NCBI GenBank assembly: GCA_003550275.1
Contig: QXCW01000002.1
Location: forward strand, 248,001-312,000
Length of the DNA: 64,000 nucleotides
Direction: 5' to 3'
Source: Flavobacteriaceae bacterium MAR_2010_72
Lineage (GTDB): Bacteria > Bacteroidota > Bacteroidia > Flavobacteriales > Flavobacteriaceae
Shown: piece after piece, positions 13,411-20,023 of the stretch
Position numbering within the stretch: the stretch's first letter is position 1
How the letters are laid out: each line of letters begins with the position of its first letter
Made by a program: the position numbers and the translations under genes
Notes under the pieces: generated by a model
The model's input: only the letters and a program-made list of their open reading frames with translations
The model's database searches: none
What the model was told of the DNA's origin: nothing

Positions 13411-14139
13411 ATGAGAGTAATTTACGAGGACATACTACAATTGATTTCTGAAGGCAAAAAATTATTAGCAGTTTTAATCGACCCTGATAAAGTTGTGCCT
13501 GAAAATTTATATGGGTTTATGCAAAAGTTAAATCAATCAATGGCTTCCCATATTTTCGTTGGCGGAAGTACTGTTGATGAAAATATGACCGAAAGATTGG
13601 TTGATATTATTAAAAAACAAACAACACTGCCTATTATCTTGTTTCCCGGAGATGTTACCCAAATTGCTGAAAACGCAGATGCCTTATTATTTTTATCATT
13701 GATTTCGGGTAGAAATCCAGAGTATTTAATTGAAAAACATATTAATGCGGTTTCAAAATTACGGGACATGCAACTTGAAGTCATTCCAACGGGATACGTG
13801 TTGATTGAAAATGGAAAAGAAACTTCGGTGCAACGAGTGACACAAACACTGCCATTGAAACGGGATAACATCCAATACATAGTTGATACGGCTAAAGCTG
13901 GGGAATTATTAGGGATGAAATTGATGTACCTCGAGGCAGGTAGTGGAGCTACACATCCAGTACCATCTGAAATTATAAAGAAGGTAAAACAAGTATCGAC
14001 AATCCCACTTATTGTAGGTGGTGGGATTAGAAATACAGATCAGTTACAACGGGCCTATAATTCAGGTGCGGATATTGTGGTTATTGGAACTGCTTTTGAA
14101 GAAAACGAAGATTTTTTTAACGAATTAAAAAGACTATGA
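13411..14139 (+). CDS. Geranylgeranylglyceryl phosphate synthase (GGGPS/PcrB family)
   Basis: The 242-residue TIM barrel joins sn-glycerol-1-phosphate to an isoprenyl diphosphate through an ether bond, the first committed step of archaeal-type lipids. Family marks are LLAVLIDPDK near the N-terminus, HIFVGGSTV, PTGYVLIENG, YLEAGSGA and the phosphate-binding PLIVGGGIRNTDQ near residues 195-208. Bacteroidota carry group II GGGPS enzymes that, in tested members, make geranylgeranylglyceryl phosphate. What this product does in these bacteria is poorly known. The stop overlaps the next start (ATGA). Confidence 0.92.
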   Translation: MRVIYEDILQLISEGKKLLAVLIDPDKVVPENLYGFMQKLNQSMASHIFVGGSTVDENMTERLVDIIKKQTTLPIILFPGDVTQIAENADALLFLSLISGRNPEYLIEKHINAVSKLRDMQLEVIPTGYVLIENGKETSVQRVTQTLPLKRDNIQYIVDTAKAGELLGMKLMYLEAGSGATHPVPSEIIKKVKQVSTIPLIVGGGIRNTDQLQRAYNSGADIVVIGTAFEENEDFFNELKRL

Positions 14140-14396
14140 ACATATCAGTAGAACTTACCTTAACACCATTGCATGATAATTATGAACCAGCTATTATTCA
14201 CTTCATAAAGAAATTGAGGGCTTCTGGGTTAAAAGTTTTGGAAAACCCGTTGAGCACCCAAATTTATGGCGATTATGATGAGGTTATGCAATTGCTCTTA
14301 ATAGAAGTTAAAGAAGCCTTTAAGTTAATGGAGCATGGATTGTTACACATGAAAATTGTAAAATCTGATAGACACGATTATGAACCACATTTTTGA
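14136..14396 (+). CDS. Thiamine-binding protein, YkoF/MTH1187 family (small form)
   Basis: This 86-residue protein matches the single-domain ferredoxin-like fold of the YkoF/MTH1187 (Thiamine_BP) family: ISVELTLTPLHDNYEPAI, a helix, then the conserved PLSTQIYGDYDEV. Members bind thiamine or its precursor HMP and often sit beside transporters. Here it is translationally coupled to the GGGPS gene before it and overlaps the PnuC-type transporter gene by 17 bases. This supports thiamine rather than nicotinamide riboside as the transported vitamin. Confidence 0.8.
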   Translation: MNISVELTLTPLHDNYEPAIIHFIKKLRASGLKVLENPLSTQIYGDYDEVMQLLLIEVKEAFKLMEHGLLHMKIVKSDRHDYEPHF

Positions 14397-15012
14397 CTTC
14401 TTTCTTGAAGCCTACCGTGGCACGCCAACCTTGCAAATTGTATTAGAAGCTATTGCGTTTGTGTTTGGGATCATGAGCGTTTGGTACGCGAAAAAGGAAA
14501 ACATTTTAGTTTATCCAACAGGAATAATCTGTACGGTAATTACAGTTTATTTGCTTTACATCAACGAATATTTTGGTGATATGATGATGAATTTTTACTA
14601 TTCGGTAATGAGTATTTATGGATGGTGGAATTGGTCACGGAAAAAAGGAGATGACTATTTGGTGCCAATTTCAAGAACAAATACTAAAGAAAAATGGATT
14701 GGGTTTGCCTTGTTTCTATTAACCATGCTTGTTACCTATTTGGTTTATAAAGCGTATAATTATGATTTAGAAGTCGCCAATTATATTGATATTTTTACAT
14801 CTGGCATTTTCTTTACGGCAATGTGGTATATGGCCAATAAGAAATTAGAAAACTGGACCTTATGGATATTTGCAGATTTAATAACTATACCATTATATGC
14901 CTATAGAGGTTTAGGAATGTTATCGTTGCAATATTTAATTTTTACAATTTTAGCAATTCAAGGATATATTGAATGGAAGAAAAGCTTAAACAGCAACCCG
15001 CAAACTGCATAA
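14380..15012 (+). CDS. PnuC-family vitamin transporter, probably thiamine (PnuT)
   Basis: The 210-residue inner-membrane protein has about seven hydrophobic segments and the PnuC substrate-site sequence around MSIYGWWNWSRK (W-x-x-W-x-x-type motif). PnuC proteins pass nicotinamide riboside by facilitated diffusion, trapped by phosphorylation; PnuT relatives carry thiamine. The flanking thiamine-binding gene and the nearby TPP riboswitch favour thiamine. The next gene overlaps it by 40 bases and encodes a kinase that could trap the substrate. PnuC and PnuT cannot be split from sequence alone. Confidence 0.85.
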   Translation: MNHIFDFFLEAYRGTPTLQIVLEAIAFVFGIMSVWYAKKENILVYPTGIICTVITVYLLYINEYFGDMMMNFYYSVMSIYGWWNWSRKKGDDYLVPISRTNTKEKWIGFALFLLTMLVTYLVYKAYNYDLEVANYIDIFTSGIFFTAMWYMANKKLENWTLWIFADLITIPLYAYRGLGMLSLQYLIFTILAIQGYIEWKKSLNSNPQTA

Positions 15013-15536
15013 AAGTAGTTTTATTCGGGCCCGAAAGTACAGGTAAAACGACCTTGTCCAGACAATTGGCAAGACATTACAATTCGGTTTGGGTGCCAGA
15101 ATATGCGCGTGAGTATCTTCAAAATAAATGGAACAACGAACGAAAAACCTGTGAGCCAAAAGATTTAATACCCATCGCTAAAGGTCAAATGGCACTGGAA
15201 AATGAATTGGCCCAAAAAACCGATTCGGTTTTAATTTGTGATACGGATTTACTGGAAACCAAAGTGTATTCTGAAGCTTATTATCTTGGATCTTGTGATC
15301 CTATTCTCGAAAAATATGCCCTACTAAACACCTACGATCTCTATTTTTTGACTTATATTGACACAACTTGGGAACCTGACGATTTGCGAGATAAACCCAA
15401 TGAAAGGGAGCGTATGTTCAAGGCTTTTGAACAAGAACTCATAAAACAAGGGCGACCTTATGTTTTATTGAAGGGAGATAAAAAAGAACGATTAAAAATT
15501 GCAGTAAAACACATAGATAGACTATTAAAAACGTAG
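14973..15536 (+). CDS. NadR-like P-loop kinase
   Basis: The 187-residue ATPase has the P-loop GPESTGKT at residues 19-26. It follows the NadR ribosylnicotinamide-kinase domain along its length (VPEYAREYL, LICDTDLLETKVYSE, DLRDKPNERERMF). The adenylyltransferase and DNA-binding domains of full NadR are absent. In E. coli-type NadR this domain phosphorylates nicotinamide riboside. Beside a thiamine-binding protein it might phosphorylate thiamine instead. It overlaps the transporter gene by 40 bases. Confidence 0.82.
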   Translation: MEEKLKQQPANCIKVVLFGPESTGKTTLSRQLARHYNSVWVPEYAREYLQNKWNNERKTCEPKDLIPIAKGQMALENELAQKTDSVLICDTDLLETKVYSEAYYLGSCDPILEKYALLNTYDLYFLTYIDTTWEPDDLRDKPNERERMFKAFEQELIKQGRPYVLLKGDKKERLKIAVKHIDRLLKT

Positions 15537-17090: not shown

Positions 17091-17498
17091 ATGTTTGATG
17101 AAAAGCATTTAATATCAGAATTGAATTTTAAGGCTGTTCGTAGTTCTGGGGCTGGCGGACAACATGTTAATAAAACGGCCTCTAAGGTTGAATTGACCTT
17201 CGGTTTAATGGAGTCTTCAGCATTGAGTGATGAACAAAAGTCTATGTTGAAGAAGAGTTTAAGTTCCAGATTAACAAACGACAATGGCATTATTCTTTAT
17301 TGCGAAGAAAGTAGAAGTCAACACAAAAATAAAGCTTTAGTAATAGAGCGTTTTTTGGAACTTATAAAACAAGGCTTGGTTGTACCGAAAAAGCGGAAAA
17401 AAACAAAAGTTCCAAAGGCGGTAAAATTAAAACGTTTGAAAAGCAAAAAAGAGACTTCTCAAAAAAAGGAAAATAGAAAGCCGCCAGAAATAAACTAA
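17091..17498 (+). CDS. arfB: Aminoacyl-tRNA hydrolase, ArfB/YaeJ family ribosome rescue factor
   Basis: The 135-residue protein releases peptides from ribosomes stalled without a stop codon. The catalytic GGQ is at residues 22-24 (SSGAGGQHVNKTASKVEL), as in the release-factor catalytic domain. The C-terminal ~35 residues are a Lys/Arg-rich tail, which in ArfB enters the empty mRNA channel. The length is normal. It is the last gene of the tight seven-gene cluster. Confidence 0.92.
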   Translation: MFDEKHLISELNFKAVRSSGAGGQHVNKTASKVELTFGLMESSALSDEQKSMLKKSLSSRLTNDNGIILYCEESRSQHKNKALVIERFLELIKQGLVVPKKRKKTKVPKAVKLKRLKSKKETSQKKENRKPPEIN

Positions 17499-17516
17499 AA
17501 TTTCTTTCATAATGCA

Positions 17517-17546
17517 TTGTTAATTGTGAATTGTTAATTAATTTTG
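17517..17546 (+). promoter_or_regulatory. Promoter of the TPP-riboswitch/TonB receptor transcript
   Basis: TTG (17517-17519) is followed after 19 bases by TAATTTTG (17539-17546), an exact Bacteroidota -33/-7 arrangement. Transcription would start at or just before the outer riboswitch stem at 17547. Confidence 0.6.
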
Positions 17547-17639
17547 CATCGTTCTCAAAAAAGGGGTGCCAATAAGTGGCTGAGATCATACCCAATGAAC
17601 CTAGAACAGGTAATGCTGTTTAGGGATTTTAATACGATG
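17547..17639 (+). ncRNA. TPP (thiamine pyrophosphate) riboswitch
   Basis: The conserved THI-element segments occur in the right order: GGGGTGCC (17563-17570), GGCTGAGA (17578-17585), ATACCC (17588-17593), GAACCT (17597-17602), ACAGG-TAATGCTG (17606-17618) and TAGGGA (17621-17626). CATCGT (17547-17552) can pair with ACGATG (17634-17639) to close P1. It leads directly into the TonB-dependent receptor gene, so the receptor is expected to be repressed when TPP is plentiful. Confidence 0.93.
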
Positions 17640-17668
17640 AAATGTTGAATTATTTTCAAGGTTTCATC
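17636..17668 (+). promoter_or_regulatory. Riboswitch expression-platform hairpin (anti-P1 candidate)
   Basis: GATGAAA (17636-17642) pairs with TTTCATC (17662-17668), with an inner TTGAA/TTCAA stem. It shares 4 bases with the 3' side of P1, so the two cannot form together. GGTTTCAT (17660-17667) can instead pair with ATGAAATC at the receptor start codon (17732-17739). Confidence 0.45.
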
Positions 17669-17731
17669 AAAACAATCAATTATTAACAAAGAATAATTAC
17701 CTCTTTTTATTCGATTATAAACATAATCGTA

Positions 17732-20023
17732 ATGAAATCGACTTTTATTGAACTCAAAATTAAAAGTTACAGTTATTCAAAATCTAGATTCAATTTCGTC
17801 CTTCTAAATAGACTGAACGGGATTAAAAATTTATTCGCGTTTTTAGCACTTTTAGTGTTATCAAACCTGGTTAACGCCCAGGAAAAGCAGCAGGATTCAA
17901 CAAAAATTGAAACGTTGGATGAAGTTCTTGTTAAAGCCGTTCGTGTTGAGGCTACATCACCAATTACACATTCAAATGTTACCAAAGACCAACTTCAAAA
18001 ACGCAATTTAGGTCAGGATATTCCTGTACTTTTAAATTATCTGCCATCGGTTGTTACTACCACCGATGCTGGTGCCGGTGTTGGTTACACAGGAATTCGT
18101 ATTCGTGGAATCAATGCGCAGTCTACTAATATTACAATTAACGGGATACCCTACAACGATGCAGAATCATTAGGGACTTTTTGGGTGAATTTGGGTGATT
18201 TTGCGTCTTCAGTGGAAAGTTTACAGTTACAGCGCGGTGTAGGAACATCAACCAATGGTTCTGGGGCATTTGGAGCAAGTATAAATATATTGACCGAAGC
18301 GGTTTCAAATGAAGCTAATGCCGAAATTTCTAATAGCTTCGGAAGCTATAATACAAGAAAACATACTGTTAAATTCAGTACAGGAAAATTGAATGATCAT
18401 TTTGAGATTGCTGGTCGATTGTCCCAAATCAAGTCTGATGGCTATATTGACAGGGCTACTTCCGATTTGAAATCTTACTTTTTGCAAGCTGCCTATGTTG
18501 ATGGTAACACCTTAATAAAAGCACTTACTTTTGGAGGGAAAGAGATTACCTACCAGTCATGGTACGGACTTGAAGATTTGGATTTGCTTGAAAACAACCG
18601 AACCTTTAACGTTGCCGGAATCTATACGGATGATGAGGGAAATACCCTTTTTTATGACAATGAAGTAGATAATTATAATCAGGATCATTACCAACTACAT
18701 TGGAACCAAAGGATGAATTCAAATTGGTCAGCTAATCTAGGATTGAACTATACTTACGGGCGAGGATATTTTGAGCAGTACAAAGAAGATGAAGACTTTG
18801 CAGATTATAATTTAGAGGAAATTACAATTGGTGGAGAAACCGTTAATACTACAGATTTGATTAGACGACGCTGGTTGGATAACGATTTTTACGTAATCAA
18901 TACGAATGTTAACTACAAAAATGAAAATTTGAATTTAACATTTGGAACTAGTTATAGCTCTTATGATGGCGATCACTTTGGTGAAATTATTTGGGCAAAA
19001 TATGCAAGTGATAGCGAAATTAGAGATCATTATTATGATAGTAATGGTAAGAAGAAAGACTTTAGCTCATTTGTTAAAGCGACCTACAGATTAAATGACA
19101 AATTTAGCTTGTATGGTGATTTACAATTGCGTTTGGTTGATTACAAAACTAACGGACTGACTTCGGACCGAATTCCATTTAATGTTAATGAACATTACAA
19201 TTTTTTCAACCCCAAAGTAGGAATTACTTATCGATTAAATGCTATTAACCATCTGTATTTTTCTTATGCAAGAGCTAATAGAGAACCAAATAGAGATGAT
19301 TTTGAAAACAATGCTACTGTAAAACCAGAACAGCTTAATGATTTTGAGCTAGGCTGGAGGCATGATACTAAAAATTTCAGGATTTACACAAATTTGTACT
19401 ACATGCATTATAATGAACAGTTGGTGCTTACCGGCAATATTGATAATGTTGGAAATCCAATTAGAACCAACAGTGGCGAAAGTTACAGATTTGGCTTAGA
19501 GGTTGAAGCTGAAATAAAGCTTTCGGATAACTTTTCAATACAACCCAATTTTACTATTAGTTCAAATAAAAATAAAGAAACCGTTGCTTCAATCGATGGA
19601 GATTTAGTGAATCTCGGTAAAACCAATATTTCATTTTCACCGCAATTTGTTGGAGCCAATACATTGATATTTCAACCTAATAAGAATTTGCAAGTGTCCT
19701 TTTTAAGTAAGTATGTTGGCGAACAATATATGGGAAATACAAATGCCGAAGCCTCAAAATTGGATAGTTATTTTGTAAACGATTTAAATGTCACGTATCA
19801 ATTGTCCTTCCTAGACAACGAAAAATCTCAACCATTTTTCAAATCAATCGTGTTTTCTGGATTGATAAATAATATGTTCAATGAGAAATATATTTCAAAT
19901 GGTTATTACTATACGTATGATGATACCTGGTCAGATCAAAATCAAGTTACAACTATAGAAGGTGCAGGATATTATCCTCAAGCAACTACAAATTTCTTGA
20001 TTGGAGTGACATTAAAATTTTAA
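17732..20023 (+). CDS. TonB-dependent outer-membrane receptor, probably thiamine uptake
   Basis: The 763-residue receptor is a 22-strand-type barrel that imports a ligand using the TonB-ExbBD system. The signal peptide is preceded by an unusually long polar stretch (hydrophobic core about residues 33-47, cleavage near VNAQ at 47-50). A TonB-box-like ETLDEVLVKAVR is near residue 60, the plug domain runs from about 75 to 190 (IRIRGINAQSTNITING), then the barrel. There is no carboxypeptidase-like N-terminal domain. A TPP riboswitch precedes it, so the ligand is most likely thiamine or a derivative. The gene is monocistronic and overlaps its convergent neighbour by 4 bases. Confidence 0.9.
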   Translation: MKSTFIELKIKSYSYSKSRFNFVLLNRLNGIKNLFAFLALLVLSNLVNAQEKQQDSTKIETLDEVLVKAVRVEATSPITHSNVTKDQLQKRNLGQDIPVLLNYLPSVVTTTDAGAGVGYTGIRIRGINAQSTNITINGIPYNDAESLGTFWVNLGDFASSVESLQLQRGVGTSTNGSGAFGASINILTEAVSNEANAEISNSFGSYNTRKHTVKFSTGKLNDHFEIAGRLSQIKSDGYIDRATSDLKSYFLQAAYVDGNTLIKALTFGGKEITYQSWYGLEDLDLLENNRTFNVAGIYTDDEGNTLFYDNEVDNYNQDHYQLHWNQRMNSNWSANLGLNYTYGRGYFEQYKEDEDFADYNLEEITIGGETVNTTDLIRRRWLDNDFYVINTNVNYKNENLNLTFGTSYSSYDGDHFGEIIWAKYASDSEIRDHYYDSNGKKKDFSSFVKATYRLNDKFSLYGDLQLRLVDYKTNGLTSDRIPFNVNEHYNFFNPKVGITYRLNAINHLYFSYARANREPNRDDFENNATVKPEQLNDFELGWRHDTKNFRIYTNLYYMHYNEQLVLTGNIDNVGNPIRTNSGESYRFGLEVEAEIKLSDNFSIQPNFTISSNKNKETVASIDGDLVNLGKTNISFSPQFVGANTLIFQPNKNLQVSFLSKYVGEQYMGNTNAEASKLDSYFVNDLNVTYQLSFLDNEKSQPFFKSIVFSGLINNMFNEKYISNGYYYTYDDTWSDQNQVTTIEGAGYYPQATTNFLIGVTLKF

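Follow-up and report, generated by a model that had tools for sequence, protein, structure and literature searches.

How could a riboswitch act on a gene in a phylum whose mRNAs lack Shine-Dalgarno sequences? The question is raised by a locus of Flavobacteriaceae bacterium MAR_2010_72, in a stretch of 64,000 nucleotides (nt) of contig QXCW01000002.1 (positions 248,001–312,000; this whole stretch is called the window, and its own numbering is used below). Here a thiamine pyrophosphate (TPP) aptamer at 17552–17643 (+) precedes the gene of a TonB-dependent receptor that starts at 17732. The answer that we consider probable, on the basis of folding models and comparison of related loci, is a TPP-sensing OFF riboswitch that controls translation of the receptor, probably a thiamine receptor, by competition among three strands, on an expression platform conserved in the family.

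Identification of the TPP Aptamer and a Conserved Platform

The aptamer was identified by its covariance-model match to RF00059 (51.7 bits, E 2.5e-9; gathering score 54.3), which bears out the placing of a TPP riboswitch before the receptor in a preliminary description of this DNA. The alignment spans the whole model (1–105), the thi-box core (CUGAGA, ACCC, GAACCU) is present within the aptamer fold, and ten model positions are deleted at the P3a stem, which is optional in TPP riboswitches (PMC2258182). As 51.7 bits is under 54.3, the aptamer is not listed in a gathering-score scan of the window. In the family sample, the gathering score was reached in 87 of 299 genomes versus 267 matching at E ≤ 0.001, so the Rfam threshold is strict for Flavobacteriaceae; it is a curation limit and not a defining trait. 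On the sequence evidence, the element is a real TPP aptamer, and TPP binding is predicted. It is the sole TPP match (E ≤ 0.001) in its own 3.41-Mb genome.

Nearly all receptor loci were found to have in common a platform of 50–60 nt directly before the ATG. Its form is GAAUAAU-N-ACC[U/C]C-U4-5-AUUCG, a small stem-loop, usually 0–3 nt, and AUGAAA; the pyrimidine run has variants such as UCCCCC, and the strongest deviations are those of the loci L067 and L068. A model of the platform built on sequence only (R1) was searched in one sample of the family, one of the order and the own genome. It matched 247 of the 299 sampled family genomes (among the matches listed, all but seven once and seven twice) and the own genome once, and in the order-wide sample 26 of 148 genomes, 20 from the own family and 6, weakly, from other families. 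All 144 fetched family matches lie downstream of a TPP core, compared with 0/6 fetched out-of-family matches; these six showed no TPP pattern in the fetched stretch and were taken as chance. The 144 are the better-scoring matches plus the window's own; the weaker ones were left unfetched except G001, and of 120 places listed after the first 30 R1 loci, 113 were fetched (omitted were G169, G261, G111, G088, G248, G104, and G263).

A receptor homologue adjoins the R1 match in 30/30 loci tested. Conversely, of 80 receptor loci taken from named genomes, 79 have a TPP core pattern (≤2 substitutions) upstream of the gene; in the exception, L058, the contig starts 30 bases ahead of the match. Among named genomes, the nearest receptor loci belong to Aquaticitalea, Gelidibacter, Psychroserpens, and others, all Flavobacteriaceae. 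In terms of its sequence, the expression platform is conserved through most of the sampled genomes of this family.

The named loci and the 144 R1 loci gave 224 loci for comparison (the window, 79 named and 144 fetched, species repeats included), of which 218 could be parsed (failures: L067, L068, L071, L073, L230, and L249), giving 189 distinct rows. Pairs were counted on an anchored layout because in a MAFFT alignment the U-run of different genera is out of register by one base. The plain shuffle control of this layout is inflated by relatedness, and a test on distinct arms and a tree are fairer.

Predicted Masking of the Start Codon

The last part of the platform and the first codons can fold into a 14-bp hairpin (S), in which the 5′ arm UUUUAUUCGAUUAU (17705–17718, +) pairs with the 3′ arm AUAAUCG(U bulge)AAUGAAA (17723–17737, +). 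U17730 is bulged, all three AUG bases are paired, and the hairpin alone has a predicted energy of −8.9 kcal/mol. Its core is a 7-bp stem-loop (CGATTAT, 17712–17718, with ATAATCG, 17723–17729), already described, which ends 2 nt short of the ATG. The earlier proposal that the start codon is masked was supported in kind; the parts then assigned to it (partner, linker hairpin and outer P1) turned out to be unconserved or at chance level (see below).

When loci were folded without the aptamer side, the mean unpaired probability of the AUG had a median of 0.004 over 79 rows, with L067 and L068 (both 0.44) and L091 (0.52) as exceptions; the predicted ligand-compatible fold hides the start codon. The core varies between clades while its pairing is kept: CGAUU/AAUCG, CGUAA/UUACG, CGAUU/AGUCG, UGUAU/AUACA (C-G to U-A), and others. 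It is fully paired in 145 of the 182 rows counted (five Lutibacter-type rows, L087 and L091 were left out of the 189). Among 37 distinct arm pairs, 12 fully paired stems were found, compared with a mean of 4.1 and a maximum of 10 in 500 shuffles. The bases that pair with the AUG are nearly invariant (facing its U, A in 187/189 and G in 2/189) and thus uninformative by covariation.

Some loci vary in this region. In L040 and L232, GTG replaces the usual ATG, and a U-G pair would keep the masking hairpin. In the Lutibacter-type loci L063, L066, L073, and L075, the hairpin is shifted (GUUUUAUUU with AAAUGAAAC) and seems, by eye, to reach into the next codons. In the distant loci L067 and L068, the codons at the start of the gene (AAUAAUAAAAAAGG) are complementary to the C/U run of the platform and resemble the aptamer strand AAAAAAGGGG; here the aptamer and the start of the coding sequence might simply exchange strands.

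Predicted Competition Between the Masking Hairpin and the Aptamer

The platform was also found to be complementary to the aptamer. The anti-strand ACCUCUUUUU (17699–17708, +) can form 10 bp, one of them G-U, with AAAAAGGGGU (17558–17567, +), the 5′ side of P1/P2; this duplex is called helix B. Opposite the invariant GGGG of the aptamer, the platform has four bases that are complementary in 189/189 rows, with C/U variation only, and the base facing the U next to GGGG is A or G in 172/189. A second hairpin, H1, would be formed by GAAUAA (17691–17696, +), a proposed anti-sequestor, and UUAUUC (17707–17712, +), which is also part of S; the anti-strand lies mostly inside the H1 loop. Compensatory changes in H1 were found as GAACAA/UUGUUC in L055 and L059 and as CGAU/AUCG in five parsed Lutibacter-type rows. 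An AU-only hairpin (AAUUAUU/AAUAAUU, 17678–17698, +) is predicted to overlap the 5′ arm of H1.

Ensembles from the inferred transcription start to 24 nt into the gene were computed for 162 of the 189 rows (rows without ACCC, longer than 420 nt or giving a constraint error were excluded). In the ligand-free ensembles, helix B had a median probability of 0.72 and exceeded 0.5 in 102/162 loci, and P2 exceeded 0.5 in 0/162. When P2 was forced, as a proxy for bound TPP, opening the AUG became costlier by more than 0.5 kcal/mol in 139/162 loci and cheaper by more than 0.5 in one, the medians changing from 3.3 to 4.6 kcal/mol. When four bases of the anti-strand were forbidden to pair, the P2 effect was cut from 45/50 to 4/50 loci (the first 50 usable rows in random order, length ≤330). 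Local models (n = 189) gave median opening costs of 4.9 kcal/mol for the occupied aptamer, 3.0 when B is formed and 1.4 when H1 is added to B.

The window's own transcript (17551–17755) folds at z −4.6, and B is formed in the minimum-energy fold as well as in the centroid. The AUG is free in the centroid and, in the minimum-energy fold, pairs with 17746–17748 and not within S; a slightly longer stretch folds with B plus a shortened S.

The aptamer, the conserved platform, the complementarity of the strands and the energetic direction are results of these computations, and from them we infer the following response to the ligand. With TPP bound, the aptamer would keep its own 5′ strand AAAAAGGGGU in P1/P2, and the U-rich strand left free would fold into the 14-bp hairpin 17705–17718/17723–17737, so that the AUG would be paired and initiation blocked (OFF). 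With TPP absent, ACCUCUUUUU would pair with AAAAAGGGGU, dismantling the aptamer and removing the U-run from the masking hairpin; H1 could then take the next bases, the short stem 17712–17729 would stay, and the AUG would be open (ON). The effects of forcing P2 and of blocking the anti-strand make TPP bound, AUG masked and OFF the favored sign. OFF on TPP binding is the usual sign for thiamine transport.

ThiS-Operon Paralogues as a Control

The highest-scoring TPP elements of the family precede ThiS genes (24/25 frames by Pfam; L031 stands before a methyltransferase-like frame), and among those listed, their P1 strand differs from that of the receptor loci (ending in AACUUUAGGGG in 24/26). For 25 of the 30 top-scoring family TPP loci, pairing between the leader and its own P1 strand was compared with controls. 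In the ThiS-type leaders, an anti-strand matching the own P1 tends to be present (mean −12.5 kcal/mol, versus −8.3 for shuffled leaders and −9.5 for a swapped receptor-type leader), the own leader beating the swap by more than 1 kcal/mol in 15/25. In the ThiS-type loci L002–L031, a start-proximal anti-strand (CCUCUA..GUUUAC and variants) is often seen opposite GUAAACUUUAGGGG.

Evidence Weighing Against a Three-Strand Switch

Several results weigh against the proposed switch. On a tree of 76 of the 80 receptors, only two A/T switches per core pair of S were counted (5′ side), which shows most of the raw covariation to be clade inheritance; in the aligned sequences, covariation is visible with few independent events. 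Helix B has no two-sided covariation because its aptamer side is invariant for aptamer reasons. H1 covaries in two lineages only and has a median probability of 0.00 in pseudoknot-free folds; B together with H1 is a pseudoknot, which lies outside the scope of the programs.

The energetics also leave room for doubt. In ligand-free ensembles, the median probability is 1.00 for the S core and 0.03 for an unpaired AUG. A shortened masking hairpin is compatible with B, and B alone lowers the opening cost by only about 1–2 kcal/mol. B alone would thus be a moderate switch, and full opening needs H1. Helix B did not exceed 0.5 in 60/162 loci (L035, which is among the two closest relatives, had 0.09), and forcing P2 shifted the cost by no more than 0.5 kcal/mol in 22/162. 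The shifted Lutibacter-type sequestor overlaps less with B; in L066, the opening cost was 6.0 kcal/mol both without and with B, and 4.8 with H1 too. Finally, 10 of the 25 paralogues failed the swap comparison.

A further candidate, the length of the A-run tracking CCUC/CCCC as a compensation of stability, was striking in raw counts and was shown on the tree to be a clade effect (five independent pairs: 1.0 the same way, 0.5 opposite, 3.5 without difference); it was not used as evidence.

Inferred Promoter and Transcript Start

The −7 box of Flavobacterium psychrophilum, TAnnTTTG, occupies positions −12 to −5 (PMC9723704). A box of this consensus, TAATTTTG, was found at 17539–17546 (+), and by the spacing rule of F. 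psychrophilum the transcription start (+1) would be at 17551 (+). TTTG is present 8–32 nt upstream of GGGG in 186/189 loci, and the inferred +1 falls 8–13 nt before GGGG in 185 of these 186.

A UCUC motif is seen near the inferred RNA 5′ end, e.g., at 17552–17556 in the window, and [TC]CTC is present in 188/189 receptor loci; in the ThiS-type leaders listed, UCUC is not next to the A-tract. Pairing of the leader UCUC with the GAGA of the thi-box was seen in one fold of L089 with extra upstream bases. It was dropped as a mechanism, its median probability being 0.00 in folds from the inferred start.

Alternative Explanations

The conserved 50–60 nt could instead be a constitutive element of the start region (a structure, or a site for a protein or a small RNA), the complementarity of CCYCUUUU and AAAGGGG being incidental. 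This would be consistent with the invariant partner of B, and hence the missing two-sided covariation, and with an Rfam scan of 17401–17900 in which no family other than TPP was matched. However, a TPP aptamer stands beside the platform in all 144 fetched loci of the family and in none of the six outside it, and the tolerance site by site fits pairing, with C/U opposite G and, in 172/189, A/G opposite U. In addition, the ThiS-type paralogues tend to have an anti-strand for their different P1, and the predicted P2 effect is abolished by blocking the anti-strand. We therefore regard a constitutive element as unlikely.

Some TPP riboswitches control transcription, and the receptor switch could act mainly on the transcript, by intrinsic or Rho-dependent termination or mRNA decay, the start hairpin being secondary. 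The preliminary description had reported no U-run and preferred translation control. A U5 run is in fact present (U17704–U17708) and counts in favor of such control, but a simple scan for G+C-rich hairpins followed by a U-run found 0 terminator-like sites in 17400–17900, Rho being beyond the reach of sequence, and the U-run already serves two conserved pairings. Translation control rather than intrinsic termination is thus supported as an inference. In Bacteroides thetaiotaomicron, the biosynthetic TPP operon changes at the mRNA level, whereas the OMthi and pnuT transcripts show no significant change with thiamine (PMC5613172). Control of the receptor mainly through its transcript appears quite improbable.

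The switch set out in the preliminary description is very unlikely. According to it, GGTTTCAT (17660–17667) would mask ATGAAATC at the receptor start (17732–17739) when an outer P1 forms (17547–17552 with 17634–17639), and GATGAAA (17636–17642) would otherwise pair with TTTCATC (17662–17668). On re-reading the sequence, the letters and coordinates of these pairings were found to be correct, including the 8 bp with one G-U between GGTTTCAT and ATGAAATC, and the linker folds stably (−15.2 kcal/mol, z −3.8), its hairpin being more than chance as a local fold and appearing in the minimum-energy fold.

The conservation check suggested for it failed, however, and with it the specific switch falls. 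An 8-bp complement in the linker to the first eight coding bases was found in 4/188 loci, window included, versus 9.1 expected from shuffled linkers, and GATGAAA/TTTCATC was found in 1/189. CATCGT (17547–17552) is complementary to ACGATG (17634–17639) at a length expected by chance (mean longest duplex 4.97 bp versus 4.99 in shuffles, n = 186), and four of its six 5′ bases (17547–17550) would lie outside the RNA, the inferred +1 being 17551. Moreover, in folds without the aptamer side, the partner of the start codon is the conserved arm next to it. The linker stem-loop (17636–17668, +) is locus-specific in sequence and, in the simplest reading, is probably a spacer stem; linkers are generally more structured than shuffles (z < −2 in 115/184, z > 2 in 0) and differ in sequence.

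A reading of the conserved ATNACC... as a short leader that is translated, or as another start upstream, and not as a structured RNA is highly improbable: L046, L050, L069, and L072 have ATGACC... open and in the frame of the receptor, but the would-be start has T as its third base in 112, G in 73, A in 17, and C in 16 of 218 loci, and the frame is not kept, as the spacing to the ATG varies by non-multiples of three.

Genomic Setting and Implications of the Riboswitch

The receptor gene (17732–20023, +) was identified from its open reading frame and its Pfam Plug and TonB beta-barrel domains as a TonB-dependent receptor, probably an outer-membrane thiamine receptor (OMthi-like). Thiamine as its probable substrate is suggested by the TPP linkage; a search of solved structures with the receptor at 1e-10 gave no match. 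At 14136–15536, 2.2–3.6 kb upstream, a Thiamine_BP-family gene, a PnuC-type transporter and a NadR-like kinase stand in a row; these are probably thiamine uptake and kinase genes, and the genome-wide TPP search found no riboswitch of their own.

In the own genome, no match to the ThiC or TMP-synthase/TenI families was found (positive controls matched in 13/14 and 11/14), suggesting a thiamine auxotroph living on uptake. Judging from its gene content, strain MAR_2010_72 is probably a thiamine auxotroph with a single TPP riboswitch, and the platform suggests how such an organism could tune the only TPP-switched gene found. The sole match of the window above gathering score is an S16-Flavobacteria ribosomal protein leader (RF03138; 62387–62421, −; 43.5 bits).

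More tentatively, the three-strand switch could be an example of a Shine-Dalgarno-independent architecture of the Flavobacteriaceae, in which a single pyrimidine strand pairs by turns with the 5′ strand of the aptamer and with the start codon, the apo state is locked by a pseudoknot (the loop of GAAUAA/UUAUUC with AAAAGGGG of the aptamer in its unfolded form), and the thiS switches follow the same logic with exchanged sequences. Such a wider architecture is possible rather than likely. If true, it would be a solution shared across the lineage for ribosomes that work without Shine-Dalgarno sites. In the literature searched, translational riboswitches in bacteria without Shine-Dalgarno use are little described, and a single platform across most sampled genomes of the family gives the exact bases to mutate.

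Comparison with Known Systems

The riboswitch class is known, and the conserved translational platform is a new variant of it. No description of the platform was found in the open-access literature searched, subscription papers and preprints being outside its scope. A bioRxiv preprint of 2019 (867226), which we know only as cited in PMC7366714, reportedly concerns control of transcription or translation.

Enterobacterial TPP riboswitches (Escherichia coli thiM, thiC, and tbpA) hide the Shine-Dalgarno site and the start, and the platform described here resembles these translational switches in its predicted ligand-dependent masking of the translation start. In contrast to them, the AUG itself sits in the stem, in a phylum without Shine-Dalgarno sequences (PMC6847099). 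Since Bacteroidota mRNAs lack these sequences and structure in the start region tunes initiation in F. johnsoniae (PMC6847099), masking of the AUG would be a sensible platform.

The retrieved text of PMC13273304, with terminator-filtered covariation models of whole TPP riboswitches, contains neither 'bacteroid' nor 'flavobacter', and that of PMC2258182 contains 'bacteroid' once, concerning S-adenosylmethionine (SAM) switches. TPP riboswitches before outer-membrane thiamine receptors were already known in Bacteroidota (PMC5613172). The switch of Bacteroides OMthi (BT2390) is similar in that a TPP aptamer precedes a TonB-dependent receptor; the Bacteroides transport transcripts showed no significant response to thiamine, which is consistent with translational control, and the same study, of 2017, called the mode of the phylum's TPP switches uncertain (PMC5613172).

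Compared to RF00059 (THI element), the window aptamer shares the core letters and the fold over the full model (E 2.5e-9); it differs in its score (51.7 versus 54.3 bits), in that the Rfam-aligned P1 is a short A/U helix, and in that the inferred transcript begins only 12 nt before GGGG. The ThiS-operon TPP riboswitches (L002–L031) are similar to the receptor switch in that, in many of them, an anti-strand near the start matches the 5′ strand of the aptamer, and they differ in having another P1 strand and another platform sequence.

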